Assembly: GCA_016213735.1 (NCBI GenBank)
Contig: JACQZU010000022.1
Location: forward strand, 123,171 to 187,170
DNA from: Acidobacteriota bacterium
GTDB taxonomy: Bacteria > Acidobacteriota > Holophagae > Holophagales > Holophagaceae
DNA: 64,000 nucleotides
Direction of reading: 5' to 3'
The notes beneath the pieces are model-generated. The model was not told the origin of the DNA and searched no databases. It saw nothing but the letters and a program-made list of their open reading frames with translations. Positions 5,377 through 20,867 of the stretch are shown here, piece after piece (the stretch's first letter is position 1; each line of letters starts with the position of its first letter). The position numbers and the translations under genes are program-made.

Positions 5377-5561
5377 TGGGATCGATCCAGCCTCGACCCC
5401 CCGGACTTGGGGGTTTGAGGGTGTTATCGTCCCGACGCCATGGAGGATAAGAAAGTGTGGCTGCTGCAGGATCTCGCCCGGCACGGAATCCTGGAGGCCC
5501 CTAGGTGATAAACATGCAGGCGATGGGCCTGCAGCGGGAGGGACGTTCCGCCAAGGAGTGG

Positions 5562-5942
5562 CTAGGCCTTCTTCCGGATCCCTAGGTGGTCGTGGAATTC
5601 CTGTTCGATGCGTTCCGTGTCGACGGCGTTGTAGAGCACCAGGTTCCGCAGGTGTTCATAACTCTCCACGCCAAGCAGGCAGGTGAACTGGATCGCGAAT
5701 CCGTCCTCGTAATCGCGCACCACCGTGCCTTCCGCGCGAATCTCGGGGAGGCCCTCCCCCAGGGTCAGCCGCACGATGCAGGGCGTTCCGGCCGGCAACC
5801 GTTCGTCGGTGCGAACCAGCATGCCCTTCATGCTCAGGTCCTGGGAGAGGGAGCTGTGGATGACCCTCCCCAGAGCGGACACTTCGGTCTGGACCTGGAG
5901 GTGGACCCGAGTGAATTCCCGCTGGTTGGGAGCCTGGTCCAT
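5562..5942 (-). CDS. PilZ domain protein
   Basis: This 126-aa protein has a PilZ-like layout: REFTRV near the N terminus (the arginine-rich c-di-GMP-binding segment, RxxxR-like but imperfect) and DLSMKGML about 35 residues later (the D/NxSxxG motif), followed by beta strands. PilZ domains bind cyclic di-GMP and modulate motility, secretion or polysaccharide output. The start at 5942 is preferred because GGAGGG lies five bases upstream. An earlier in-frame ATG at 5984 lacks a ribosome binding site. It lies directly downstream of a CheY-like receiver and CheR/CheB, which suggests it joins second-messenger signalling to the chemosensory output. The first arginine of the motif is imperfect, so c-di-GMP binding is likely but not certain. 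Confidence 0.8.
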   Translation of the reverse strand: MDQAPNQREFTRVHLQVQTEVSALGRVIHSSLSQDLSMKGMLVRTDERLPAGTPCIVRLTLGEGLPEIRAEGTVVRDYEDGFAIQFTCLLGVESYEHLRNLVLYNAVDTERIEQEFHDHLGIRKKA

Positions 5943-5990
5943 GTTTTCCCTCCGCTCCGGTTGGATCTCCCTCGCCCGTGCCATGCCGTC

Positions 5991-6371
5991 TCAGAACCCC
6001 AGGCCCAGGCAGGAGGCGATTTTGGCCGTAAGGTCGTCGTCGGAAAAGGGCTTCATCAGGTAATTGGCGGCCCCTGCCTGGATGAAGCCGAGCACCCGGG
6101 TTCCCTCCGATTCGGTGGTCAGCATCATCACGGGAATGTGCTGGAACCGGGGGTCGCCCTTGATCCGGTGGAGGGCGGTTTCTCCGTCCATGACCGGCAT
6201 GTTGACGTCCAGGATGATCAGGGCCACCTCCGCGGAATGGGTCTCCAGGGTGTCGAGGGCCATCTGACCGTCCTCGGCCTCCAGGAGTTCGTAACCCAGC
6301 ACGGCGGCCACCTGGCCCACGATTTTTCGGATCGTGGATGAATCGTCGACCGTCAGAATCGAGTTCGGCAT
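5991..6371 (-). CDS. CheY-like single-domain response regulator
   Basis: This is a 126-aa stand-alone receiver with no output domain. It has the acidic pair after strand one (VDD), phosphoacceptor Asp55 in LIILDVNMP, the conserved Thr in MMLTTES and Lys107 in YLMKPF. GAGGAG precedes the ATG by seven bases. It follows cheR by 11 bases and precedes the PilZ gene, so it is probably part of the same transcript. It is the only free CheY-type protein in the cluster and is therefore the best candidate acceptor for phosphate from CheA. Whether it binds a flagellar switch, a pilus motor or another target cannot be told. Confidence 0.9.
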   Translation of the reverse strand: MPNSILTVDDSSTIRKIVGQVAAVLGYELLEAEDGQMALDTLETHSAEVALIILDVNMPVMDGETALHRIKGDPRFQHIPVMMLTTESEGTRVLGFIQAGAANYLMKPFSDDDLTAKIASCLGLGF

Positions 6372-6382
6372 GGCGGGACTCC

Positions 6383-7228
6383 TCAGGGCCGGCACTGGTA
6401 GTAGGTGCCGCCCCCATGAGAAAGGGCGTCGAAGGCATTGGTGACGTTCAGCAGGCTCTCCACCGCGCTGATGACCAGGAATCCATCCGGAGCCAGGAGC
6501 TTCGCGAATCCCTCGTAGACCCGCCGCTTGAAGTCCGGCGCGAAGTAGATCGTCACGTAGCGGCAGAAAATGATGTCGAAGCGGCCGAGGGGGTCCATGG
6601 AGTCCTGGAGGTTGAACTTGCGCAGGGTCACGAGCTTCTTCAGGTCGTCGGACACGCACCAGACCGAGCCCTGGGGCACGAAGTACCGCTCCTTCATGCC
6701 GGGCGGAAGGCCGCGCCCGATGGCCGCGTCGTCGTAGCGCCCCGCCTTCGCCAGGAACAGCGCCGAGGGTGAGATGTCCGTGGCCAGGATCTCGAAGTGT
6801 TCCGGGCGGATCCCGGGGTGGGTCCGGCAGTACTCGTGGATCTCCATGGCGATGGAGTAGGGTTCCTGTCCGGTGGAACTGGCCGCGGACCAGATCCGGA
6901 TCCGGAACCGGCGCCCTTCCAGGATCTGCGCAGCCAGCGGAGGGATCAGCTGCTCCCTCAGGATGGTGAAGGGGTGGGTATCCCGGAACCACAGCGTCTC
7001 GTTGGTGGTCATCGCGTCGACGATCTTGTCCCGGAGGTCGGTTCCCGACCCGTTCGCCGCGAGGCGGTAGAAACTCCCGTAGTCGCTGCAGCCCGTCTCG
7101 GCCAGGAGGCCCGCCAGCCGCGTCTCCACCAGGTAGCCCTTCTCTTCCCCCAGGGCGATGCCGCAGTGGGTTTCGATGTAGTCGCGCAGCAATCGGAATT
7201 CTGCGGCGCTCAACGCTCCGACGGCCAT
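6383..7228 (-). CDS. cheR: Chemoreceptor glutamate methyltransferase CheR
   Basis: A 281-aa S-adenosylmethionine-dependent methyltransferase that adds methyl groups to glutamates of chemoreceptors for adaptation. The N-terminal all-alpha CheR domain (FRLLRDYIETHCGI, then the TTNETLWFRD segment) is followed by the SAM-binding fold with RIWSAASSTGQEPYS and a FDIIFCRYVTIYF segment. The latter matches the family 'DvIfCRNVlIYF' motif, with V instead of the usual N-V pair. The frame extends upstream to 7312, but the ATG at 7228 sits one base after the cheB stop codon and fits the family N terminus. It is presumably translationally linked to cheB. There is no TPR or other extra domain. Confidence 0.95.
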   Translation of the reverse strand: MAVGALSAAEFRLLRDYIETHCGIALGEEKGYLVETRLAGLLAETGCSDYGSFYRLAANGSGTDLRDKIVDAMTTNETLWFRDTHPFTILREQLIPPLAAQILEGRRFRIRIWSAASSTGQEPYSIAMEIHEYCRTHPGIRPEHFEILATDISPSALFLAKAGRYDDAAIGRGLPPGMKERYFVPQGSVWCVSDDLKKLVTLRKFNLQDSMDPLGRFDIIFCRYVTIYFAPDFKRRVYEGFAKLLAPDGFLVISAVESLLNVTNAFDALSHGGGTYYQCRP

Positions 7229-7229
7229 C

Positions 7230-8360
7230 TCAACGCCCCCTCTGGACGATCTGGATGATTCGGGGCGCGATGAGGTGCAAGGGAACTTGCTCGTCCGAGA
7301 GGCCCGCCTCATCCACCGCCAGCGGCATCCCGTAGACCACGCAACTGGCCTCGCTCTGGGTGATGCAGTGACACCCGTGACGCCGCATGGTCCGCACCCC
7401 CTCGCAGCCGTCGCTGCCCATCCCGGTCATCACCACCGCCAGGAGACCTCCGTCGTACTGGGCGGCCACGGAACGGAACAGCACGTCCACCGAGGGGCGG
7501 CAGCTGTTCTCGGGCGGGTTCTCGTTGAGCCCGACCAGGTGCACCCGCGCCCCCGAGGGGTCGGTCTTGCTGCGCACCACCATGTGCTTGCCCCCCGGGG
7601 CGATGTACACGCAACCCGCCTCGAGGACTTCCCCCTCCACCGCCTCCTTGACCGCGATGGCCGACCGCCTGTCCAGGTGCTCGGCCAGCGAGGCCGTGAA
7701 CCCTGCCGGCATGTGCTGGACCAGGACCACGGGCACGGGGAGGTTCTTGGGCAGCCCAGGGATGACCTCCCCCAGTGCGTTGGGTCCCCCGGTGGAGACC
7801 CCGATGGCCACCACCTCGATCCTTCCCGGAACCTGGGCCGCTGCCCGGACCGGGGGGGCCGTGAGCCTTGGCGGTGCGCTGGGGGCTTCCACAGTGGTCC
7901 GAGGGCTAGGGGCGACGACGGTTCCCGGGGACGCGCCTTTGAGGTTGCGCTTCATCCGGACATGGCGGAGCAGCGGGCGCAGGGATTCCCGGAGTTCGCT
8001 CCGGCTGGTCTCGGGGTCCTGCCCCTCCGGTTTCCGGATGAAGTCCAGGGCACCTTGGTCCAGCGCCTGGATGGTGGCGTTGGCCGCCAGCGTGTTGGAA
8101 CCGCTGATCATCACCACCGAAACGCCCGGGAAGCGGACCCGGATGTGCCCCAGGGCTTCCAGGCCGTTCATTTCAGGCATCTCCACGTCCATGAGGACCA
8201 GGTCCACCTGCGTCTGTTCCAGCTTGGCGAGGGCCAGCCTGCCCTGGGGGGCGCTGCCCACCACTTCCACCCCGTCATGGGCTTCCAGGGCCTCGGTCAA
8301 TAGACGGCGGTACAGCACGGTGTCGTCGACCACCAGCACTCGAAGGGGGGTGTCAGTCAT
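7230..8360 (-). CDS. cheB: Chemotaxis methylesterase/glutamine deamidase CheB
   Basis: This 376-aa protein has the standard CheB layout: an N-terminal receiver with phosphoacceptor Asp58 in LVLMDVEMPEMNG, a proline/threonine-rich linker (about 140-178) and a C-terminal methylesterase. The catalytic triad is visible: Ser189 in GVSTGGPNA, His216 in VQHMPAGF and Asp317 in MTGMGSDG. It removes methyl groups from receptors and is activated by CheA-dependent phosphorylation. It lies between the c-heme chemoreceptor gene and cheR in one strand-oriented run. All key residues are present. Confidence 0.96.
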   Translation of the reverse strand: MTDTPLRVLVVDDTVLYRRLLTEALEAHDGVEVVGSAPQGRLALAKLEQTQVDLVLMDVEMPEMNGLEALGHIRVRFPGVSVVMISGSNTLAANATIQALDQGALDFIRKPEGQDPETSRSELRESLRPLLRHVRMKRNLKGASPGTVVAPSPRTTVEAPSAPPRLTAPPVRAAAQVPGRIEVVAIGVSTGGPNALGEVIPGLPKNLPVPVVLVQHMPAGFTASLAEHLDRRSAIAVKEAVEGEVLEAGCVYIAPGGKHMVVRSKTDPSGARVHLVGLNENPPENSCRPSVDVLFRSVAAQYDGGLLAVVMTGMGSDGCEGVRTMRRHGCHCITQSEASCVVYGMPLAVDEAGLSDEQVPLHLIAPRIIQIVQRGR

Positions 8361-8399: not shown

Positions 8400-9692
8400 C
8401 TACAGCCTGAACTTGGAGACATTGGCCTGGAGGCGCTCGGCGAGCCGGGCGAGCTCCTTCGCCGCAGCGTTGGTGTCGGTCGCCCCCCGGGTGGTATCCT
8501 TCGCGGCGCCGCTCACCGATGCCACGTTCCGCGCCACGTCGTTCATCCCCCTGGCGGCCTCGCCCGCGTTCCGGGCCACGTCCGTGGCCCCCGCCGCCAG
8601 CTGGTTGATGTTCCGGGCAATGTCCGTCACCCCCTTCACCGCCTCCTGGACGTTTCGGGACACCTCGTTCGCCCCCACTGCCGCCTGGGTCACGTTCCGG
8701 GTCACGTCCCCCGCTCCCCTGGCCGCGGTTCCGACGCTTCGGGTGATCACCGCCGTGGTGGCGGTCTGTTCCTTGACGCTGGATTCGATGTCCTCGCTGA
8801 TGGAGTTGATCTGGTTGATGATCTGGACGATCTCGTCGATCGCCTTCACCGCGCCCCGGGTGTTGCTCTGCATCCCCTCCACCTGTGCGCGGATCTCGTC
8901 GGTGGCGGCGGCTGTCTGCTTGGCCAGCTCCTTCACCTCGTTGGCCACCACCGCGAAGCCCTTGCCTGCCTCGCCGGCGCTCGCGGCCTCGATCGTCGCG
9001 TTCAGCGCCAGCAGGTTGGTCTGCGCCGCGATCCCCTTGATCATGTCCACGACCTTGCCGATCTCCTGCGCGCTCTTGCCCAGCTTGTCCACGATCTGGG
9101 CGGTGCTCCCCGCCGACTGGGCCGCCTGGCCCGCCACCGTCGCCGCCTGGCCGGAACTCTTCGACACCTCGTTGAGCGACGCCGACATCTCCTCGATCGC
9201 CGTGGCCACCGAGTTCACGGAAGACTGCATCTGCTCCGACGCCGAGGCGATCGTCCGCATGTTCGCGGACATCTGCTCCACCGCGGCGCCCACCGTCCGC
9301 AGGTTCGTGCTGACCTCCTCCGACGCCGAGGCGACGGTGTTGGCGTTGGCGCTGATCTGCTCCACCCCCGCCGCCATGTTCTTCACGTTGGCCGAGGCCT
9401 GTTCCGACGCCGCCGCCGCGGTGTTCGCCTGGTTGGTCATCTGTTCCGCGGTTCCAGCCATCACATCGGAACTCGCCGTCAGCTGGTCTGCGGAGGAGGC
9501 CACCGTGTTCGAGGCGCCGCTGATCTCCGTCAAGGCCTGGGCCAGCTTCGCCGCGCTGTTGTTGATGGCTTCCGCCAGCTTCTGGAAATCCCCCTGGTAG
9601 GCGGTCGCGATCCGCGCGGTCAGGTCTCCCTTCTCCATGGAGCCCATGACCCGGATCACCTCGTTCACCGGCCCCACCACCGCGTCCACGGC
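8400..9692. repeat. Direct repeat copy A (MCP signalling domain, about 1.29 kb)
   Basis: This segment encodes the signalling rod of the c-heme receptor and aligns without gaps to 10805-12097 (offset 2405). Most of it is identical at nucleotide level, including synonymous positions. Similarity ends abruptly near 9692, where the HAMP-proximal part diverges. A more diverged patch lies around 8700-8810. Confidence 0.85.
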
Positions 9693-10676
9693 CTCGTTGA
9701 GACCCTCCACGATTCGTCCGTAGGCCCCCCGGTAATTCCTGGAATCCCCCCGGACGTCGAGGCGCCCCTCCCGGGCGGCTTTGCTGACCCTGGAAGTCTC
9801 CTCGGACAGCCCGTTCAGCACCTCCGTGACCCGGATCATGTTGCGGGAAAGGAGGTCGTTCTCGCCCTTGGGGGCCAGGGATACCTTGAGGTTGCCGTCG
9901 CCCAGCCCATCCGCGGCCGCGGCGATCCCCTTGATGTAGGCGACGAGGTCCCGGAAGGAATCCGCCAGGACGCCCAGCTCGTCCCGGGACCGATGTTTGA
10001 GGTCCTGGTTGACCTCTCCCTTGGCGATCCCGGTGGCGGCGGAGGCGATCTCCCCGAGCGGCCGGGTGATCCAGCGCAGCATCAGGAACACGCTGAGCGC
10101 CACCAGGAGAACCACCACCAAATTGAAGGCGACGAGGCTCCGTTTCGAGGCGGAGGTTTCCTTGAAGTCCTTGTCGGCCCAGGGCTCGACCCCCAGGTAG
10201 CCGAGCTGCTCCCCGACCTTGATCCCCGCATGGCAGTCCACGCACGCCCGTTCCATCAGGATCGGCGCGACGGTCCTTGAATAGGGCCGGCCTTCGTCCT
10301 CCAGGATTTTGAAGGTCTCCTGGGCGCCTCCCTTCAGCAGGGTCACCTCTTCCGCGGCGTAGGGCCGGTCGATCAGATTCTTGTCCGAGGCGAGGAAGGC
10401 CCTCCCATCGGCCCGCAGGACGAACACCCGCCGGACCGCCTGGGAATTCCCGACCTCCGCGGTCATGACCTGGGCGCCCTCGTTGTCGCCCTTGAGCATG
10501 GCGTTGTGGAGGGACGCAGCCAACACGGTGGTGAGGGCGGTGCCCCCGTCCTTCAGGCGGCGGGTGGTCTGGTCGTTCATCTGCCGCCACTGGATGGTCA
10601 TGGCGACCCCGAAGATCAGCACCAGCACCCCAATGACCGGGGGCAGCGTCTTCCCCAACACGGTGTTCCTGCTCAA
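8400..10676 (-). CDS. Methyl-accepting chemotaxis protein with a periplasmic c-type heme sensor domain
   Basis: A 758-aa receptor with TM1 at about 12-28, a periplasmic domain (about 30-180), TM2 at about 182-202, a HAMP ([10 protein letters not shown] onward) and a long cytoplasmic signalling rod containing the conserved [16 protein letters not shown] tip. The periplasmic domain carries one CVDCH motif (145-149), a covalent c-type heme attachment site, inside a PAS/Cache-like fold ([18 protein letters not shown]). Heme-c chemoreceptors are known in Geobacter; such proteins are thought to sense redox potential or small ligands of heme iron. Translation appears to start at TTG 10676, with GGAGAAGGG just upstream. 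The C terminus (VSKFRL) lacks the NWETF-type CheR/CheB tether. Its signalling half is almost identical to that of the neighbouring receptor. Confidence 0.93.
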
Positions 10677-10750: not shown

Positions 10751-10806
10751 AAAACCCCCTGTCCAAGGGGGCGGGCCGGCGGAGGTCCGCCGGCCCGGAT
10801 TTTTTT
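10751..10806. terminator. Back-to-back terminator hairpins between the two receptor genes
   Basis: Read on the minus strand just after the downstream-facing receptor gene, there is first a 12-bp GC stem (about 10773-10796). It is followed by a second stem, 10755-10760/10766-10771, which is trailed by TTTT (10754-10751). Read on the plus strand, the larger stem is followed by a T-rich run at 10800-10806. It should reduce or end transcription between the 4HB-type receptor and the c-heme receptor, so cheB, cheR and the genes below may form their own unit. Confidence 0.7.
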
Positions 10807-12097
10807 ACAGCCTGAACTTGGAGACGTTGGCCTGGAGGCGCTCGGCGAGCCGGGCGAGCTCCTTCGCGGCCGCGTTCGTGTCGGTCGCCCCCCGGGTGGT
10901 GTCCTTCGCGGCGCCGCTGACCGAAGCCACGTTCCGGGCCACGTCGTTCATCCCCTTGGCGGCCTCGCCCGCGTTCCGAGCCACGTCCGTGGCCCCCGCC
11001 GCCAGCTGGTTGATGTTCCGGGCAATGTCCGTCACCCCCTTCACCGCCTCCTGGACGTTTCGGGACACCTCGTTCGCCCCCACCGCTGCTTGGGTCACGT
11101 TCTTGGCGACGTCCCCGGCGCCCTGGGCGGCGCTCCCCACATTCTTGGAGATCTCGTTGGTGGTGGCGGTCTGTTCTTCCACCGCGGCGGCGATGGTGCC
11201 GCTGATGGAGTTGATCTGGTTGATGATCTGGACGATCTCGTCGATCGCCTTCACCGCGCCCTGGGTGTTGGTCTGCATCCCCTCCACCTGTGCGCGGATC
11301 TCCTCGGTGGCGCTGGCCGTCTGCTTGGCCAGCTCCTTCACCTCGTTGGCCACCACCGCGAAGCCTTTTCCTGCCTCGCCGGCGCTCGCGGCCTCGATCG
11401 TCGCGTTCAGCGCCAGCAGGTTGGTCTGCGCCGCGATCCCCTTGATCATGTCCACGACCTTGCCGATCTCCTGGGCGCTCTTGCCCAGTTTGTCTACGAT
11501 CTGGGCGGTGCTTCCCGCCGACTGGGCCGCCTTGCTCGCCACCGTCGCCGCCTGGCCGGAACTCTTCGACACCTCGTTGAGCGACACCGACATCTCCTCG
11601 ATCGCCGTGGCCACCGAGTTCACGGAAGACTGCATCTGCTCCGACGCCGAGGCGATCGTTCGCATGTTCGCCGACATCTGTTCCACCGCGGCGCCCACCG
11701 TCCGCAGGTTCGTGCTGACCTCCTCCGACGCCGAGGCGACGGTGTTGGCGTTGGCGCTGATCTGTTCCACCCCCGCCGCCATGTTCTTCACGTTGGCCGA
11801 GGCCTGTTCCGACGCCGCAGCCGCCGTGTTCGCCTGGTTGGTCATCTGTTCCGCCGTTCCGGCCATCACGTTGGAACTCGCCGTCAATTCGTCCGCCGAC
11901 GACGCCACCGTGTTCGAGGCCCCGCTGATCTCCGTCAAGGCCTGCGCCAGCTTCGCCGCGCTGTTGTTGATCGCTTCCGCCAGCTTCTGGAAATCCCCCT
12001 GGTAGGCCGTCGCGATCCGCGCGGTCAGGTCCCCCTTCTCCATGGAGCCCATCACCCGGATCACCTCGTTCACCGGCCCCACCACCGCGTCCATGGT
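10805..12097. repeat. Direct repeat copy B (MCP signalling domain, about 1.29 kb)
   Basis: Partner of the repeat at 8400-9692. The match is gap-free over the whole signalling domain, including the stop codon region, and breaks near 12097. The flanking sensor-coding parts are unrelated. This pattern fits duplication of a receptor with later sensor replacement, or repeated gene conversion. Confidence 0.85.
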
Positions 12098-13108
12098 GTC
12101 GTTCACGCCCTGGACGATGGCCCGGTATTCACCCTGGTACTTGCTGGCATCGGCCCGGGTCGCGAGTTTCCCTTCCACCGCCGACTTGGCGAGCATCTTG
12201 GCCTCGCTGGACATGGCGCGGAGGGTCTCGGTGGCCTTCTTGAGGGCCGGGGCGATCTCGTCCTGGGCGTCGTGGGCCTGGAAGTCCCGGGACAGGTCGC
12301 CCGCGGCGATCTGCTGCAGGCCCTGCACCACGCTCTGCAGGTCGTCGGTGAAGCCGTCCATGGCCTTGGCCAGGGCCCCGATCTCGTCCTTGCGGTCCAT
12401 CTTCAGGCGCATGCCGAGGTGGCCCTTGGCCATCTCGTTCATCATTTCGACGCCCTTGGCAAGGGGACGGGCGATGGATCGGGAGATGACGATTCCCAAC
12501 CCGGCGGCAAGGAGGGCGCCCAGGGCCATCAAGATGTACATGGCCTTCTCGGCCCCATGGGCGTCGGCGGTGTTTTTTTCCGCCAGGTTTTTGGCGAATT
12601 TCACCTTTAGATCCGCCATTTCATCAAAGATCTTGTTCTGGTCCGCCTGAAGCTTTTCCCCTTCGCCGTAGAGGAGTTTCTGGGCCTCCCCCTTGCTGCC
12701 CGCGGCCAGGAGTCTGGCGATCTCCTTGTTCGTCTCCCCGATTTTCGCTTGATTCTCGACGTAGGATTTCCACAAGGCCCGACCGGCATCGGTGGCCAGG
12801 GACTTCTCGAAAATGGGCAGGTTCTTTGCGCGCTCCTCCTGTCGCGCGGCGATGCGTTTGTTGTAGGCCTCGACATCGCCGGTGATGTACATGTCCCGAA
12901 TGTTCGCCCGGATCCGGTAGGTGGCCTGCTGGATGTCCGCCCAGACCATGAGGGGTTCGGTTCCCTTCTCGAACAGCATCGTGTCGGCCTCATTCGCGGC
13001 GGCTAGTTTCGCAACCGCGAAAAACCCCAGGAATACCGCGATGGCCGCCGTGAAGAGGAACGAGACGATGAGCTTGGGTCCCATCTTGATGTTGTCGAGG
13101 AATTTCAT
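10805..13108 (-). CDS. Methyl-accepting chemotaxis protein with four-helix-bundle sensor
   Basis: A 767-aa receptor with TM1 at about 13-33, a helical periplasmic domain (about 35-190) of the 4HB_MCP type (a conserved '[10 protein letters not shown]' helix and long charged helices), TM2 at about 190-210, a HAMP starting at [11 protein letters not shown], a second HAMP-like/linker segment, and a long signalling rod with the [16 protein letters not shown] tip and [11 protein letters not shown] adaptation helix. It should bind a small ligand outside the inner membrane and control CheA through CheW. GGAGG lies seven bases before the ATG. It follows cheW directly. From the [16 protein letters not shown] segment onward it is nearly identical to the c-heme receptor, so the two probably share one array and differ only in sensing. 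Confidence 0.95.
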
Positions 13109-13145: not shown

Positions 13146-13619
13146 TCAATGGCTGAAGAGGAGATCGTGCATGTTGAGGAGGATCAGGAGCCCGGCGTCG
13201 GTCTTGACCACGCCGGACAGGAAGCGCTCCTCGGTTTCGTTGAGGTTGGCCGGGGGTGCTTCGGTGTGGCCCGATTCGGCCTCCACCACGTCGCTGATGG
13301 CGTCCACCAGGAGGCCGACGGGCTCGTTGGCTCCCTGGGGCGGACCGCCGCTGCCGCGGCTGAGGGCGGTTCCGATCTCGGCGGCGGTCTTGAGGACCAC
13401 GATGTGGCTGTTGTCCGTGATCTCAGGGCGGTCCATGCCCAGCCGGACCGCCAGATCCAGGATGGTGACGATCTGGCCCCGGAGGTTGATGAGGCCGCGG
13501 ATGTGCCCGTCGGTGCGGGGGACCGGCGTGATGTCGAAGACCCGGATGATTTCCCGGACCGAGAGGATGTCGGTCCCGTAGAGCCGGTCGTTGACTCGGA
13601 AGGTGGCGTACTGGGTCAT
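13146..13619 (-). CDS. cheW: Chemotaxis coupling protein CheW
   Basis: A 157-aa single CheW domain. It has the family features: an N-terminal [15 protein letters not shown] strand pair, [17 protein letters not shown] (the NLRG motif contacting receptor tips and CheA), and [13 protein letters not shown]. It links receptors to the kinase CheA in the array. Its ATG overlaps the cheA stop codon as ATGA (13616-13619), so the two are probably translated together. The next gene downstream is the 4HB-type receptor. Confidence 0.95.
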
Positions 13620-16330
13620 GGCGCGACTCCTGCGGCCGACCCGGCCAGGGCCACGGGATCAAGGAACAGGGTGAGGTGGTCCTGGACCATGGCGGACCCA
13701 AGCAGCCCCGGACCCTTGATCTCCACCGGTTTGAGGTCCACTTCCACGTCCACGGCATCCAGGATCGTGGAGATGAGGATGCCGGCGGGGGGAGGGGATT
13801 CGCTTCCCAGCACCTTTGGAATGATCACGTAGAGTTCCTCCGTGCCGGGAGCGATGGGGCTGACCTCCATCACCCCGTCCAGGCGGATCAGGGGCAGGCC
13901 CTCCCCGCGGTAATCGATGTACTCCCGGTCCCCCACCCGCTCGATGGCCCCGGCCTGGATGCGCTCCAGACGCTGGACCTTGTCCTGGGGAACCGCGAAA
14001 TGCTCGCCCACGGCCGCCTTGAACAGGATCACGGAACGCAGGCGGCTCGCCTTCAGGGCCCGGGCTTCCAGTTCCTTCTCCGCGCGCTTCTTGCCTTCGG
14101 CCTGAAGGTCGGTGAAATGCAGCCCGGCCAGGTTGGACAGGCCGGAGGCGTCGAGGATCATGATCACCCGTCCGTCGCCGAGGATGGTGGCGCCGCTGAA
14201 GCACTTGGTGTCGTGGAGGAAGCTGGAGAGGGGCTTCACCACGATTTCCTCGATGTCGAAGAGCTCGTCGACGATCACCCCGAACTGGTTGGGGCCCTGC
14301 CGGAGGACCACGACGTTGTAGTCGCTGCGCCAGTCCTTCCTGCGGTCCTCGGCCCGGAGGCTTTTTCCCTCCCCCGGCCCGCGCCGGTCCGCCAGGCTCT
14401 GGCGGCGGTCCTCGGCGGCTTCCCCGGAGTCGGGGTCCACATAGATCCTGGGCAGGTCGAGGGCGTCCGCCAGACGCACCAGGGGGAGCAACTGGTCTCT
14501 CAGGCGCAGCACCTCCGCACCCTGCACCCGTTCGACCTTGGTCCGGACCTCGGATGCCTTGACCCAGACGAATTCGACGACGTTCACCTGGGGGATGGCG
14601 AAGCGCTGGTTGCTGACCCCCACGATCATGGAGGGAATGATGGCCAGGGTGAGGGGGAGCTGCAGGCGGACCGTGGTGCCCTGGCCCACGACGCTTTCCA
14701 TCTCCACGTGCCCGCCGAGCTTCTCCGTGTTGGTGCGAACCACGTCCATGCCGACGCCCCGGCCCGAGATGTCCGAGATCTTTTCCGCCATGGAGAACCC
14801 GGGGGCGAAGACCAGGTTGACGATCTCGCGCTCGCTCATCTCGGCGAGCTGGGCCTGGGTGATGAGCCCCTTGGTCACGGCCTTGGCGCCCACCTTCTTG
14901 GGGTCGATGCCTCGCCCGTCGTCCCGGATGACGATGTTGACCTGGCCCCCTTCGTGATAGGCATCGAGGTAGATGGTTCCGGTGGGGTTCTTGCCCTTGC
15001 TGCGGCGTTCCGCGGGGTCCTCGATGGCGTGGTCGGCGCAGTTCCGGATGATGTGGGTGAGGGGGTCGGTGAGCAGCTCCACGATGGACTTGTCCATCTC
15101 CACCTCCGCCCCCTGGATCTGGACCTCGATCTGCTTGGCCAGCTGGCGGCTCATGTCGCGGATGATCCTGGGAAAGCGGCTGAACACCATGCCGATCGGC
15201 TGCATGCGGGTCTGCATGATGCCTTCCTGCATTTCGGTGGTGACCTGGTTGAGGTTCTGCAGGATCCCGTTGAGACCGGGAATGTCCCGCCGCCGGTCTC
15301 CGACGGCGAGCATGAGCTGGTTCCTGCCCAGGACCAGTTCTCCCGCAAGGTTCATCAGGTTCGTCAGCAGTTCCACCCGGACCCGGAGGGTCTCGGAACC
15401 GGCCTCGCGGGAGGCCTTGGAGGCAGACTTCTCCTCCGGGGATCCCTCCGGAGCCGGATCCGCCCCCCCCGCCGCGGGCACCGGGGAGAATTCCGGGGTC
15501 CCGCCCACGGGCTGGGGTTCCGGGGCTTGGAGGGGGTCCGCCTTTTTGGGATCCGCCACCTTGGCGGATTTCTTCAAGGCGTCCATGTCCAGGGGCTTGA
15601 GCTGGGAGGGGGGCAGCTTGAGGGCCAGGGCCGCCAGTTCCGGTTCAAGCACCGTCCCGAACAGCAGGGTGACCGGAAGGTCCTGCTCCAGGCAGCCCTC
15701 GAGGTCGGCGATGGCCATGACGTCGATGAAGGCGTCCAGGCAGGTTCCCACCGACAGGGCGTTGTTGAGGAAGGCGAGCGGGGTGAGGCCCTGGTCGCGC
15801 ACATCCCGGTGCAGGTAGGCGATGGCGTGGTAGAGGGTCATCCCCCGGCGGAGGGCCGATCGCACACCTTCGGCATCCAGGTCGAAAAGCGGGCCCCCTC
15901 CTTTCGTCTTCGCCTTGACCGTCTTCCCGGTGGCCACCCCCTGCCGGTCCAGGATCCCCTTGAGGGCCTCCAGTTCCTTCTCGCAGGGGACCGAATCGCT
16001 GCTCTGGATGTCGTCCAGCATGGCCCGAAGCCGGTCCAGGGCCCCGAAGACCACGTCCATGATGGCCGGGGTCACGGACAGCTTCCCGTCCCGCACCTGC
16101 ATGAGAACGCTTTCCATGGCGTGGCTCAGGCGCTTCAGGTTCTCGAAGGCGAAGAACCCCGCCCCCCCCTTGATGCTGTGGATGGCGCGGAACACCCGGT
16201 TGATGACCTCTCCCACCGCCGCGGCTCCATCCTGTTCCATGGCCAGCAGATCGGGCTCGATCGAACTGAGATGCTCCCGGCTTTCCGCGACGAAATCCGA
16301 GATGATGCTTTCGTCGGCAAAACTGCTCAT
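13616..16330 (-). CDS. cheA: Chemotaxis histidine kinase CheA with two C-terminal CheW-like domains
   Basis: About 904 aa. The P1 Hpt domain carries phosphoacceptor His51 in RAIHSIKGGAGFF. A linker with a variable middle region follows. The P3 dimerisation domain includes LMNLAGELVLGRNQL, and the P4 ATPase has IRNCADHAIE (N box), RDDGRGID (G1) and SDISGRGVGMDVV (G2). A P5 CheW-like domain (TLAIIPSMIVGV to about GLHFTD) contains a charged insert. A second CheW-like domain at the C terminus (SVILFKAAVGEHFAVP to the end) is unusual beside the single P5 of the classical enzyme. The ATG at 16330 overlaps the STAS gene stop as ATGA; the frame extends upstream but reads through the STAS gene. It should phosphorylate the CheY-like protein and CheB. 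Confidence 0.95.
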   Translation of the reverse strand: MSSFADESIISDFVAESREHLSSIEPDLLAMEQDGAAAVGEVINRVFRAIHSIKGGAGFFAFENLKRLSHAMESVLMQVRDGKLSVTPAIMDVVFGALDRLRAMLDDIQSSDSVPCEKELEALKGILDRQGVATGKTVKAKTKGGGPLFDLDAEGVRSALRRGMTLYHAIAYLHRDVRDQGLTPLAFLNNALSVGTCLDAFIDVMAIADLEGCLEQDLPVTLLFGTVLEPELAALALKLPPSQLKPLDMDALKKSAKVADPKKADPLQAPEPQPVGGTPEFSPVPAAGGADPAPEGSPEEKSASKASREAGSETLRVRVELLTNLMNLAGELVLGRNQLMLAVGDRRRDIPGLNGILQNLNQVTTEMQEGIMQTRMQPIGMVFSRFPRIIRDMSRQLAKQIEVQIQGAEVEMDKSIVELLTDPLTHIIRNCADHAIEDPAERRSKGKNPTGTIYLDAYHEGGQVNIVIRDDGRGIDPKKVGAKAVTKGLITQAQLAEMSEREIVNLVFAPGFSMAEKISDISGRGVGMDVVRTNTEKLGGHVEMESVVGQGTTVRLQLPLTLAIIPSMIVGVSNQRFAIPQVNVVEFVWVKASEVRTKVERVQGAEVLRLRDQLLPLVRLADALDLPRIYVDPDSGEAAEDRRQSLADRRGPGEGKSLRAEDRRKDWRSDYNVVVLRQGPNQFGVIVDELFDIEEIVVKPLSSFLHDTKCFSGATILGDGRVIMILDASGLSNLAGLHFTDLQAEGKKRAEKELEARALKASRLRSVILFKAAVGEHFAVPQDKVQRLERIQAGAIERVGDREYIDYRGEGLPLIRLDGVMEVSPIAPGTEELYVIIPKVLGSESPPPAGILISTILDAVDVEVDLKPVEIKGPGLLGSAMVQDHLTLFLDPVALAGSAAGVAP

Positions 16331-16656
16331 TTCGCAGCCTCCTCGATGGGAAAGAAGCGCGTCAGGTTGAACAGGCGGAAGACCCGGAGAATGTCCGGGC
16401 TGACCCCCTCCACCGAGAATCCGATTCCCTTCTTCTGGCAACTCTTGAACAAGCCCAGGGTGAGGGTGATGCCGAGGGAATCGATCTGCCGGGCGGTTCC
16501 CAGGTCCAGGACCACCGGCCCCTGCGCACCGTCGATGGCCTTCAGCATTCCGCTCCGCAGGGACTCCACCGTGCTGGCCACCAGGTCCCCGCGGGGGCTC
16601 AACCTGAGGGCTTCCTCGGATTTCTGGACTTTCAGGGCCCCGGGTTTGGTTGCCAT
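16327..16656 (-). CDS. STAS-domain anti-anti-sigma factor-like protein (RsbV/SpoIIAA type)
   Basis: A 109-aa single STAS domain with the family pattern: beta strand (LRLSPRGDLVAS), VVLDLG, then IDSLGITLTLGLFKSCQKKG. Ser60 in IDSLG is in the place of the serine that RsbW-type kinases phosphorylate and SpoIIE/RsbU-type phosphatases dephosphorylate. The gene starts one base after the stop of the large kinase/phosphatase gene and overlaps cheA by ATGA. It is therefore the obvious substrate of the phosphatase and ATPase domains of that neighbour. It could release a sigma factor encoded elsewhere, or act on the chemosensory proteins. Confidence 0.9.
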   Translation of the reverse strand: MATKPGALKVQKSEEALRLSPRGDLVASTVESLRSGMLKAIDGAQGPVVLDLGTARQIDSLGITLTLGLFKSCQKKGIGFSVEGVSPDILRVFRLFNLTRFFPIEEAAK

Positions 16657-16657
16657 G

Positions 16658-19600
16658 TCACGCCTCCCATTCGAAGACCAGTTCCAGTTCTCCGCCCACC
16701 ATGACCACCCGGGACGCGCAGTGCCGGATGTAGGGAATGCCCCGACCGCGTTCGGACAGGGGATCTTCGGGGGGCGCGAGGTTTTCGAGGTCGAACCCCA
16801 ATCCCTCGTCGACCACCGCCAGGCGGAAGGACGGGGGACTCACACTCCAACCCGCCGAAAGGACGATGCCCTTGCTCGGGTCCCCGGCATTGCCGTGCGC
16901 GGCGGCGTTGGTCAGGGCCTCCCGGGCGCAGGTCAGGATGTCGAAGGCGCGGGAACGGGTCAGGGGGATGGAACGGGGGCCGGCCTGCACCCGGGCCTCG
17001 AGCTGTTCGACGGCAGCATCGATGGCTTCGGGACTCGAATCGAGCTCCACCCGCAGGTCCCCGGTGGCCAGGGCGGGCTGTTCGAAGCCGACCGCCAGGA
17101 GATCGTCCTTGAGCACCCCGCCCGTCATGGCGCGGGCGGCGTCCGCCATGTGGGCCACCGCCGCGTCGACCGACAGGGTGGTGCGGACCGCACACCAGGC
17201 CTCACCGGCGGAGTCCTCGAAGAACCTCCCATCCCCGTCCTGGGCCTCGAACACCCCGTCGGAACCGAAAAGGATGCGATCCCCTTCCTTCAGCATCAGG
17301 ACCTTTTCCTCCACGAGGGGCTGGTCGAAAATCCCCAGGGGAGTGCCGTTCAGGGCGATCCGGCGGCACCCGCTCGGGCCCGAGATCAGGCCGTGGGGGA
17401 GGCCCGCGTTGAGCACGTGGAGCCGGCCCGTCGCGGGGGTCCAGAAGCCGATCGCGGCGCAGATCGGAACCTCGGAGAACGGCCCTTCCAGGATTCCTCG
17501 GCTGAGCCGGCGGGCCAGCTGGAGGGGGCTTCGGAAATCCCCCACGAGGCTGGACAGCAGGCCCAGGAAGGCCGCGACCGCATAGCTGCTGATGACCGAA
17601 TGGCCGGCCACATCGGCGAGAATGAACAGGATCGAGCCATCGGCCTGTTTGAAGCACCTGAACACGTCGCCACCCGCGTCGGTCAGGGACTGGTGGACCG
17701 AATAGATCGGCATGTCCCGTTCGGGTTCCGCCACCAGGGCCTTCTGGGCCCTGCGCACCGCCTGGACCGTCTCGGTGGAGCGCTTCCTCGCCCCGGCCCC
17801 CGAGAGGAGTCGCTCCACACAGGCGACCAGGGCCTCGGCCTCGAAGGGCTTGGCCAGGAATTCGTTCACCTGGAGGTGGAGGGCGGCCGCCAGCGATTCC
17901 TTTTCGACGTTGGAGGACAGGAGGACCAGGGGGATCTCTCCGTCGACCTCGCGGATCCTCTCCACGAGCTGCATCCCGTCCATCCGCGGCATCACGAAAT
18001 CCGTCAGGACCATGGCGAAGGCAGAAGCCCCCCGCTCCGTGAAGATCTCCCAGGCTTCCCGTCCGTCCCGCGCCGGGAAGACCGTGAAGCCCGCCTTGCC
18101 GAGCCAGGAACTGAGCAGAGAAAGGGTGACGGCGCTGTCCTCCGCCACCAGCACCGCGCCCCGTTGCGTTCCGGCCTTGGGGGTGGGATCCAGGACCGGC
18201 TTCTGCTCGGGGGCCTTGGAATCCAGGGTTTCCCGCAGGGCACGGCCGATCTGCTCGATGCCGAAGGGCTTGGGCACCACCCGGTCGAAGAGGGTTTCGG
18301 TCCGACCCACCTCCTCCAGGGCCGCGGCGCTTCCGGAGGCCAGCAGGATTGGGATCCGGGGCCGGAGTTTGCGGATCGACCGCGCCACTTCCTCGGCCGG
18401 AATGGGTCCCTGCCGGTAGCTGAGGATCACCGCGTCGAAGATGGCTGGGTGTTCCCGGAACGCGTCCAGGGCCTCCCGGGGGTGGCCCTTGGCGGTGACG
18501 TGGTAGCCCAGGGTCTGCAGGCCCTCCTTGGTGAGAGCCACGCGGACATCTTCCAGGTCCACCACCAGCAGGTGCTCCTTCCCCTGGACGCTGGCCAGGT
18601 TGGATTTCTTCTCGCCGGTGGGTTGTGCCGCCGCGGAGGGAAGTTCCACGGTCACGAGGGTGCCCCTTCCCGGGGCCGATTCGATGTGGATCCGCCCCCC
18701 CTGCTGGCGGACGATGCCGTGGACAACCGACAAGCCCAGGCCCGTGCCCTCCCCCGGGTCCTTGGTGGTGAAGAAGGGCTCGAAGACCTTGGCCAGAACG
18801 GCTTCCTCCATGCCGGTGCCGTCGTCCCGGATGCGCAGCACGGCGCACATCGCACCCGCCTCGCCGCTCGGCTCCAGGACGAGGGTCGAGGGGGCTTCCA
18901 CCAGGGTGATCTCCAACTTTCCGCGGCCGCCGGAGAGGGCCTGGAATCCGTTGAGCGCCAAGTTCATGACCACCTGATGGACCTGGCCCGGGTCGCCCAC
19001 GGTCCAGATGGAGGAACCCGCATTGACCTGGAGGACCACGCTCCTGGGAAGGGTGTTCTGGAGCAGCTGAGCGCATTCCCGGACCACCGCCGAGAGGTCG
19101 AAGGGAATCCTCTTCTCCTCCGCGGGGCGGCTGAAGGTGAGGATCCGGCGGTTGAGCTCCTTGGCCCGGTTGGCGGCCTGGAGGATGATCTGCAGCTTGG
19201 GCCGCAGGGGGCTGTCCTCCGGGAGTTTCCAGTCCATCAACTCCGCCGAACTGAGGATCGCGGTGAGGATGTTGTTGAAATCGTGGGCGATCCCCCCGGC
19301 CAGGGCCCCCAGGGCGTCCATCTTCTCCACCTGACGAAGGTGCTTCTCCATCTCCTTTTCCTGGGTCACGTCCCGGATGACCACCAGGAGGTCCTGGCCT
19401 TCCCCCCCGGGCTCCGCCACCAAGGATGCGGAGATGGCCAGTGCCAGCGCTTTCTCCTCCATGTTCCGGATCCAGGTGGTCCGAAGGCGCAGGGGCTGGG
19501 CCGCGGTGAGGCCCCCCTCCTGGATGGCGTCGAGGATCTCCTTCCCGGGTCCTCGGAAGAACCGAAGGAGACGGCACTTGCCATCCTCCATGCCCTGGGT

Positions 19601-20482
19601 TGGGCAGACCTCGCATTCGCAGCCAAGGATGTGATGAAAGGCCTTGTTGGCCTGGATCAGCCTCCCATCCGTGGTGCACACCGCGACCGACTCGTCCGCG
19701 AACTCGAGGGCGGAAATGAGTCGCCGCTGGCTCAATTCGAGCTCCCGGCGCGCGGTGATGTCCTCCTTCACCGCGAGGAAATGTGCGATCCGGCCGCCCC
19801 GGAAGATGGGGCCGATCAGGGCCTCTTCCCAGAACAGGGTTCCGTCCTTCCGCCGGTTGGAAAACTGTCCCCGCCAGGTCCCTCCGGCCGTGATGGTCTT
19901 CCACAGTTCTTCATAGACGCTGTCCGGCTGCAGGCCGCTCTTCAGGATCCGGGGATTCGCCCCGAGAACCTCTTCCGGGGCGTACCCGGTGAGCTCGGAG
20001 AATTTCGGATTGACGTATTCGATGGCTCCGGAGGTGTCCGTGATGACGATGCTGGCCGGACTTTGTTCCACCGCGGCCAGCATGAGATCCGCGCGCTCCT
20101 CGCTGTTCGCCAGGAGGGCCGGGGTTCCTCCCTGTTGGGTGAGGTCCTGGACCAGGATCAGGACACCCCCCACCCCGCCGCCGGAGTCACGGAAGGGCCT
20201 GGCCTCGATCCGGACCCTGGCGACGCATCCGTCCGCCCCCCGGAGGCATTTTTCCAGAGGAACCCGGGCGCCATCCCCCGGATCAGTGGCCCATCCCAGG
20301 CCATCCCGGAAAGGTTCGCCCTCTGGGGAGAACTCGGACCAGTTCCGTCCAAGGACGTTTGATTCCTGGGCGTGAAGGAGGTCGCAAAGGGGACGATTGG
20401 CCGCCGTGACCCTTCCCTGGGCATCCAGCACAGCCGCACCCACCAGGGAGGTGTCCAAGGCCCGGAAAACCGATTCCGCCAT
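16658..20482 (-). CDS. Hybrid histidine kinase fused to SpoIIE phosphatase and RsbW-like ATPase
   Basis: Numbered from ATG 20482 (1274 aa): three PAS domains (about 1-120, 125-245, 250-375); HisKA with His400 in GGIAHDFNN; HATPase_c (about 505-615, GEGTGLGL); a degenerate receiver (about 637-745) where the phosphoacceptor position is Ser688 (VILSYRQ); an intact receiver (about 776-890) with Asp828 (VLTDFVMPRMDG); a PP2C/SpoIIE phosphatase (about 925-1135) with DAGGDVF, LADVAGHS, GSDGVFEA and LKDDLLAV; and a second HATPase_c of RsbW type (about 1155-1274) with EALTNAAAHGN, DEGLGFD and ERGRGIPYI. No membrane segments are seen. The frame runs to ATG 20686, but the extra 68 residues are proline/glycine-rich and no start there has a good ribosome site; ATG 20500 is also possible. 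The STAS gene follows after one base. The likely job is to set STAS phosphorylation in response to PAS input. Confidence 0.9.
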   Translation of the reverse strand: MAESVFRALDTSLVGAAVLDAQGRVTAANRPLCDLLHAQESNVLGRNWSEFSPEGEPFRDGLGWATDPGDGARVPLEKCLRGADGCVARVRIEARPFRDSGGGVGGVLILVQDLTQQGGTPALLANSEERADLMLAAVEQSPASIVITDTSGAIEYVNPKFSELTGYAPEEVLGANPRILKSGLQPDSVYEELWKTITAGGTWRGQFSNRRKDGTLFWEEALIGPIFRGGRIAHFLAVKEDITARRELELSQRRLISALEFADESVAVCTTDGRLIQANKAFHHILGCECEVCPTQGMEDGKCRLLRFFRGPGKEILDAIQEGGLTAAQPLRLRTTWIRNMEEKALALAISASLVAEPGGEGQDLLVVIRDVTQEKEMEKHLRQVEKMDALGALAGGIAHDFNNILTAILSSAELMDWKLPEDSPLRPKLQIILQAANRAKELNRRILTFSRPAEEKRIPFDLSAVVRECAQLLQNTLPRSVVLQVNAGSSIWTVGDPGQVHQVVMNLALNGFQALSGGRGKLEITLVEAPSTLVLEPSGEAGAMCAVLRIRDDGTGMEEAVLAKVFEPFFTTKDPGEGTGLGLSVVHGIVRQQGGRIHIESAPGRGTLVTVELPSAAAQPTGEKKSNLASVQGKEHLLVVDLEDVRVALTKEGLQTLGYHVTAKGHPREALDAFREHPAIFDAVILSYRQGPIPAEEVARSIRKLRPRIPILLASGSAAALEEVGRTETLFDRVVPKPFGIEQIGRALRETLDSKAPEQKPVLDPTPKAGTQRGAVLVAEDSAVTLSLLSSWLGKAGFTVFPARDGREAWEIFTERGASAFAMVLTDFVMPRMDGMQLVERIREVDGEIPLVLLSSNVEKESLAAALHLQVNEFLAKPFEAEALVACVERLLSGAGARKRSTETVQAVRRAQKALVAEPERDMPIYSVHQSLTDAGGDVFRCFKQADGSILFILADVAGHSVISSYAVAAFLGLLSSLVGDFRSPLQLARRLSRGILEGPFSEVPICAAIGFWTPATGRLHVLNAGLPHGLISGPSGCRRIALNGTPLGIFDQPLVEEKVLMLKEGDRILFGSDGVFEAQDGDGRFFEDSAGEAWCAVRTTLSVDAAVAHMADAARAMTGGVLKDDLLAVGFEQPALATGDLRVELDSSPEAIDAAVEQLEARVQAGPRSIPLTRSRAFDILTCAREALTNAAAHGNAGDPSKGIVLSAGWSVSPPSFRLAVVDEGLGFDLENLAPPEDPLSERGRGIPYIRHCASRVVMVGGELELVFEWEA

Positions 20483-20867
20483 GGACCCTTCGAATTCCAT
20501 GGGGAGAGCGGGCCTTTCCGGAGACCGTCCCCCCGGGTGGCAACCCGCGGTGACGAGGACAGGCTCCGGAGGGGGCACAGGGTTCCTGGAGGTGGTCTCA
20601 GGGGATCCGAGAAGGCCCGGGCCCGGGATCAGGGTCGATGACGCTCCCTGTTCCAAGCCGACGGCCTGTCCAGATAGGCGTTCCATCCCAAGGAGGGAAC
20701 CTGGACCCCCCCGGAATCGACCCCAGGGTCATGAACTTTAATTTTGTTGGGAAACGGTTTTACCAGGTGGAAATTGCCGTGGTGACCCCTCGAAGGAAGA
20801 GGCAAGGGCGCACGGGTTCGTTTTCGGGGGAGAGGTCCGTTCCACCCGGGCGGCTCAGGGTCCCCCC
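20483..20867. other. Upstream region of the signalling block
   Basis: About 385 bp between the large kinase start and an exported-protein gene on the same strand. It holds an AT-rich patch at about 20735-20780, the only such patch nearby, which is a reasonable place for the promoter of the signalling block. I could not assign confident -35/-10 or sigma-28 elements. The part at 20483-20686 stays in frame with the kinase and could be N-terminal coding sequence. Confidence 0.4.

Follow-up and report, generated by a model that had tools for sequence, protein, structure and literature searches.

A histidine kinase and partner-switch fusion at the head of a conserved chemosensory operon in Holophagaceae

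Overview

A chemosensory operon found in several genera of Holophagaceae begins with a single gene that joins a hybrid histidine kinase to a serine phosphatase and an RsbW-like kinase of the partner-switch type, and continues with genes for a STAS protein and CheA. The order fused module, STAS, cheA is present in 14 of 93 genomes of the class, distributed over five genera, including the genome that supplied the window (the whole 64,000-nucleotide stretch of DNA analysed here). We put at roughly 55% the probability that the operon is a chemosensory system with a partner-switch output, in which the CheA array and, where it is intact, the fused kinase act through the receiver REC2 on the balance between the PP2C and RsbW-like domains, and through that balance on Ser60 of the STAS protein. 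What is new is the arrangement, namely the fusion to a hybrid histidine kinase and the fixed position at the operon head; the regulator itself is of a known kind. The operon provides a compact, conserved system for testing chemosensory control of an output other than the flagellar motor.

Organization of the Fused Regulator and its Operon

The fused open reading frame encodes 1342 amino acids from the ATG at 20686 and 1274 from an alternative ATG at 20482, with an identical domain set from either start. Pfam bears out the proposal of an earlier note, made from the letters of the window, that two-component input, a PP2C phosphatase and an RsbW-type kinase share one chain; the layout is PASx3-HisKA-HATPase_c-REC1 (degenerate)-REC2-SpoIIE/PP2C-HATPase_c_2 (RsbW-like). 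PAS domains are called at residues 78-185 and 202-312, with PAS_8 giving three stretches, followed by HisKA (459-521), HATPase_c (564-684), a single strong receiver (845-957), SpoIIE (1016-1197; 1.2e-22) and HATPase_c_2 (1225-1330). The top profile match in PDB is Rv1364c (3ke6). An AlphaFold model of the REC2-PP2C-RsbW portion (mean pLDDT 82) contains a helix of about 34 residues (113-146), partly of low confidence, that bridges REC2 and PP2C, and its best Foldseek matches are Pseudomonas aeruginosa RssB (REC-linker-PP2C) and the RsbU-RsbW domains of Rv1364c. A long plus-strand frame (13676-20362, 2228 codons), antisense to cheA, the STAS gene and the hybrid kinase, was rejected as a high-GC mirror of these genes.

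The genes that follow are listed in Table 1. As the earlier note had described, the STAS gene begins one base after the fused gene, whose TGA stop occupies 16660-16658, with the STAS ATG at 16656; the 3' end of the STAS gene, GCGAAATGA, shares an ATGA overlap with the cheA ATG at 16330. After cheA come genes for CheW, two methyl-accepting chemotaxis proteins, CheB, CheR and a CheY-like receiver, orthologues of which are 54-64% identical and occupy the same position in related loci. Beyond it lie a PilZ gene and then another large PAS hybrid kinase. The PilZ-domain protein (5562-5984, minus strand), encoded close to where the che operon ends, has RxxxR and DxSxxG motifs that suggest a link to c-di-GMP; the gene was dropped as a component of the system, being absent from orthologous loci. 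A second CheA of the same genome is encoded on contig C23, which also has flagellar genes, and the operon in the window is therefore likely to be an additional, non-motor chemosensory system.

Table 1. Genes of the operon and output domains of the fused protein, in window coordinates.
Feature	Position	Strand	Basis
Hybrid histidine kinase and partner-switch fusion	16658..20686	-	Pfam, alignments
REC2 receiver, aa 843-957; acidic pocket, Asp, Ser, Lys intact	17816..18160	-	Alignment A3
SpoIIE/PP2C phosphatase domain, aa 1003-1205	17072..17680	-	Alignment A1; fold like RssB, RsbU
RsbW-like HATPase_c_2 domain, aa 1213-1342	16661..17050	-	Alignment A1; PDB profile matches RsbW, SpoIIAB
STAS protein, 109 aa; predicted phospho-site Ser60 (QIDSLGI)	16327..16656	-	Pfam; SpoIIAA and RsbV structures by profile
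CheA (Hpt, dimerisation, HATPase_c, CheW-like); catalytic motifs intact	13616..16330	-	Pfam; orthologue motifs
CheW	13146..13619	-	Pfam; position conserved
Methyl-accepting chemotaxis protein, 4HB sensor	10805..13108	-	Pfam
Second methyl-accepting chemotaxis protein	8400..10676	-	Pfam
CheB	7230..8360	-	ORF; orthologues at same position
CheR	6383..7312	-	ORF; orthologues at same position
CheY-like receiver	5991..6371	-	Start placed at MPNSILTVDDS within longer frame

Distribution and Conservation of Gene Order

Orthologues of the C-terminal module, at approximately 45-63% identity, were recovered from 13 further genomes belonging to genera g3, g4, g7 and g9, and at all 13 of these loci the module, the STAS gene and cheA stand in that order. 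Genes for CheW and a methyl-accepting chemotaxis protein come next wherever the contig extends far enough, and CheB, CheR and CheY are found at the longer loci. Because the order recurs in 13 other genomes and four further genera, it is more than a product of chance; the earlier note had named conservation across genera as support for a functional unit, and a strain-specific fusion or an assembly artefact is ruled out by the 14 genomes, several of which are single-contig assemblies. The orthologue of the operon's CheA (61-73% identity) is confined to the same 14 genomes as the fused module, so that across the 93 genomes the two are never found apart. Genus g3 has an extra CheR-like protein between the methyl-accepting chemotaxis protein and cheB (L050:3805-4425; L049 around 3461-4036).

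A scan of GTDB contigs found the fusion only in Holophagaceae-like loci, at an identity of at least 46%, and none was found beyond the family in a sample of 396 genomes of the phylum, where the rest were weak SpoIIE matches. These surveys thus gave no sign that the fusion spans several phyla. One of the weak matches (L116) is, as judged by eye, a chain of membrane sensor, SpoIIE and RsbW that has neither a receiver nor a histidine kinase.

Active-Site Residues and Proposed Mechanism

The motif residues of REC2 and of the output domains are strictly conserved. In REC2, E12, D13, D59, S88 and K109 are invariant in all 14 proteins (alignment A3). The same holds in alignment A1 for the PP2C domain (GGD, D36 of AD(V/I)AGH, D154 of (S/T)DG, and the D205/D206 pair) and for the RsbW-like domain (E267 and N271 of the N-box, D304xGxGF with G306 and G308, and GRGI). 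Every motif residue being of the active type in 14 of 14, an inactive C-terminal kinase or phosphatase is ruled out. The Asp59-Ser60 pair of the STAS protein is invariant in 17 of 17 aligned sequences, and in the CheA orthologues the P1 His and the N, G1 and G2 boxes are present as far as each locus extends over them. REC1 is more variable. Its description as degenerate holds for the window, where the phospho-acceptor Asp is replaced by Ser (VILSYRQGP), and not for the family as a whole: the position is Glu in g7 and Ala or Thr in g3, but g9 retains the Asp (TDLSMP).

With the active sites and the STAS serine both invariant, the adjacent STAS protein is most likely the substrate of the fused PP2C and RsbW-like domains, as had been suggested; the case for this, from homology and residue conservation, is strong. 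The PP2C domain would dephosphorylate Ser60 and the RsbW-like domain would phosphorylate it at the expense of ATP. Which of the two prevails would be decided by the phosphorylation state of REC2, transmitted through the helical linker. Gating of the balance by REC2 is strongly suggested by homology and conservation, namely by the helix between REC2 and PP2C, by the fold matches to RssB and Rv1364c, and by linker-mediated dimerisation, which has been proposed as a general mode of control for PP2C phosphatases of this kind (PMC12143880). The STAS protein, in its phosphorylated or unphosphorylated form, would then bind or release a partner, which may be the RsbW-like domain (together with a sigma factor) or a different protein, FlgM being one candidate.

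Source of Phosphate for REC2

Two histidine donors would be available to REC2, the PAS-controlled kinase core of its own chain and the CheA array of the same operon. It is conceivable that the former is the only input, with HisKA passing phosphate to REC2 in cis or in trans, and that the che genes only share its transcript or signal alongside it through CheY. The embedded kinase, intact in most carriers, could serve as sole donor: HisKA, HATPase and REC2 are all intact in the proteins of the window, g7, g9 and g3, and the operon has a CheY of its own. We nevertheless judge this arrangement unlikely in view of the natural variants, and in view of the inseparability of the module and the operon's CheA across the 93 genomes.

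In genus g4 (L047:9880-13410 and L048:1134-3827) Pfam recognises neither HisKA nor HATPase_c, and the proteins have lost the N, G1 and G2 motifs. Despite this decay of the histidine-kinase core, REC2, PP2C, RsbW and the STAS protein are intact. The two g4 proteins are 76% identical in REC2, 66% in PP2C and 70% in the RsbW-like domain, as against 32% in the first HATPase region and 36% in REC1. CheA is the likely donor to REC2 in this genus, because it is the only histidine kinase that could be recognised among the ORFs of the g4 cluster and the surrounding 20 kb. A second variant is provided by the sister family f2 (L054, L057, L058), whose operons run STAS-CheA-CheW-CheB-CheR-HEAT/REC and then continue with REC-SpoIIE and RsbW-like proteins, each encoded by a gene of its own. 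Here the parts of the partner switch are unfused and lie at the opposite end of the operon, and the REC-PP2C protein remains within a che operon with no histidine kinase attached. By the gene-fusion argument, the presence of the split genes in a cheA operon implies that the parts are functionally linked. The simplest reading of the decay in g4 and the split layout in f2 is that CheA feeds REC2, and on these two grounds we infer, with moderate confidence, that CheA is the phosphate donor. A more elaborate proposal is that a single receiver with a Ser kinase-phosphatase output collects signals both from the array and from the PAS histidine kinase joined to it covalently, that either can drive the switch, and that the fused kinase has been lost in one lineage. 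A chemotaxis-like array would in that case record its signal by phosphorylating a serine of a STAS protein. This proposal we hold tentatively, at somewhat short of even odds. The g4 decay and the split version in f2 make the choice between CheA and the fused kinase as donor directly testable.

The deep branches of the CheA tree do not resolve whether the STAS-linked CheAs of the two families form one clade. A STAS gene also precedes other CheAs in clusters that contain no PP2C gene (L055, L122), so that adjacency of STAS and cheA is not in itself proof of a partner switch. At L122 (genome G072) a STAS-cheA pair occurs twice in nearly identical form, with some 10 kb between the copies (4841-7331 and 14823-17316); in both, Asp-Thr replaces Asp-Ser in the STAS protein, and the locus has no SpoIIE-RsbW profile match. 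The HEAT-repeat protein of f2, which has a terminal receiver (L054:14157-15974, L057:3994-5622, L055:14817-16436), has CheR or CheB on one side and the REC-SpoIIE gene on the other, the latter being absent from L055.

Possible Outputs

The earlier note had remarked that no sigma factor is encoded nearby, and this is correct: neither a sigma factor nor FlgM was seen among the Pfam matches and ORFs of the cluster, and all matches to sigma-70 region 2 in the window genome are on other contigs. The further step taken there, that the STAS protein may act on the array, has fared less well. Set by the fused protein, the STAS protein would bind CheA, CheW or the receptors and tune the array, and the partner switch would lie upstream of chemosensing. 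The ATGA overlap, which suggests translational coupling of the STAS gene and cheA, and the lack of a sigma factor in the cluster both suit such a role. We know of no partner-switch STAS protein that acts on CheA, however, and the natural variants favour the opposite direction, with CheA feeding the switch: separate REC-PP2C and RsbW genes in f2 fit CheA as donor, and in g4 there is no longer a fused kinase whose signal could be passed on to the array. The Shewanella precedent likewise runs the other way (PMC9855816). Tuning of the array by the STAS protein thus appears improbable.

A narrower form of the preferred reading, in which the array sets the switch, specifies a sigma factor as the target. 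The STAS protein would free sigma-28/FliA or another sigma factor, with the RsbW-like domain serving as the anti-sigma factor (as for CrsR) or with the STAS protein binding FlgM (as for HsbA). Both modes have precedents (PMC6482189), and among the 14 carriers a FliA-like sigma factor is present in all and FlgM in 13. FliA is also present in 72 of the 93 genomes, however, which makes the association a weak one. The window genome has eight matches to sigma-70 region 2, classed by eye as RpoD, RpoH-like, FliA-like and five ECF-like, and none of the eight is RpoS- or SigB-like. It also has a FlgM gene, outside the cluster; since most flagellated relatives have both FliA and FlgM, their presence is compatible with an HsbA-like output through FlgM but does not discriminate in its favour. 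With no gene for either kind of partner in the vicinity of the operon, we regard a sigma factor output as possible but on the doubtful side.

Comparison with Known Systems

The earlier note regarded partner-switch components as normally separate and the system as undescribed, and both statements need revision. HsbR, CrsR, SypE and Rv1364c all unite such components in one chain (PMC6482189, PMC8256260, PMC12143880), and the window genome has a further example on contig C18 (L101:11631-13682), a stand-alone REC-SpoIIE-HATPase protein of 555 amino acids, of the HsbR/CrsR type, with an adjoining STAS gene; it is 26% identical to the fused protein over the aligned part. A third partner-switch locus of this genome, on contig C7 (L102:7175-9563), has separate SpoIIE, RsbW-like and STAS genes. 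Single chains with both kinase and phosphatase are therefore a known class, and CrsR and CrsA had already been found with CheA in the Shewanella che1 locus (PMC9855816). A review of STAS-only proteins had also noted such proteins in motility and chemotaxis operons. In a search of largely open literature, no published description was found of a histidine kinase-SpoIIE-RsbW fusion, or of its fixed position as the first gene of such an operon.

The window module differs from the classical RsbU-RsbV-RsbW-sigma-B and SpoIIA operons in being a single chain with no adjoining sigma gene. In Bacillus cereus the kinase, the phosphatase and RsbW are separate proteins that act on sigma-B, and RsbY is a REC-PP2C phosphatase. 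RsbK-RsbY of this organism resembles the present system in that two-component input enters a partner switch; the input is reported to drive the RsbY response regulator, which activates SigB (PMC9912610). Rv1364c of Mycobacterium tuberculosis shares with the fused protein PAS input, RsbU and RsbW domains in a single chain. It also carries its anti-anti-sigma (STAS) domain in that chain (PMC12143880), whereas the STAS protein of the window is a separate ORF past a stop codon, and it has no histidine kinase or receiver. SypE of Vibrio fischeri combines opposing kinase and PP2C activities with a receiver in one protein directed at the STAS protein SypA (PMC8256260, PMC12826045), and in this it is like the window protein. 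The two differ in that the order in SypE is kinase-REC-PP2C, with no fused histidine kinase. To our knowledge, SypE is not located in a che operon.

A close likeness in domain order is to HsbR-HsbA of Pseudomonas aeruginosa and CrsR-CrsA of Shewanella oneidensis, in which a receiver, a PP2C phosphatase and an RsbW-like kinase form one chain with a separate STAS protein as target (PMC6482189). Shared features are the intact receiver directly before PP2C, the metal-binding Asp residues of PP2C, the Glu and Asn of the RsbW N-box, and a neighbouring STAS gene with a phosphorylatable Ser. HsbR and CrsR are stand-alone regulators, whereas the window module is fused to PAS-HisKA-HATPase-REC and so has an extra, often degenerate, receiver. 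In Shewanella, Che3 serves chemotaxis, while Che1 has been proposed to act on RpoS. CrsR and CrsA are encoded together with CheA in the che1 locus; the link from array to partner switch, including phosphotransfer from CheA to the receiver, is there a proposal (PMC9855816). The setting differs in that no RpoS-like sigma factor was seen in the window genome. The gene content of the two loci is nonetheless alike, with a STAS protein and a REC-PP2C-RsbW module clustered in each with CheA, CheW, a methyl-accepting chemotaxis protein, CheB and CheR.
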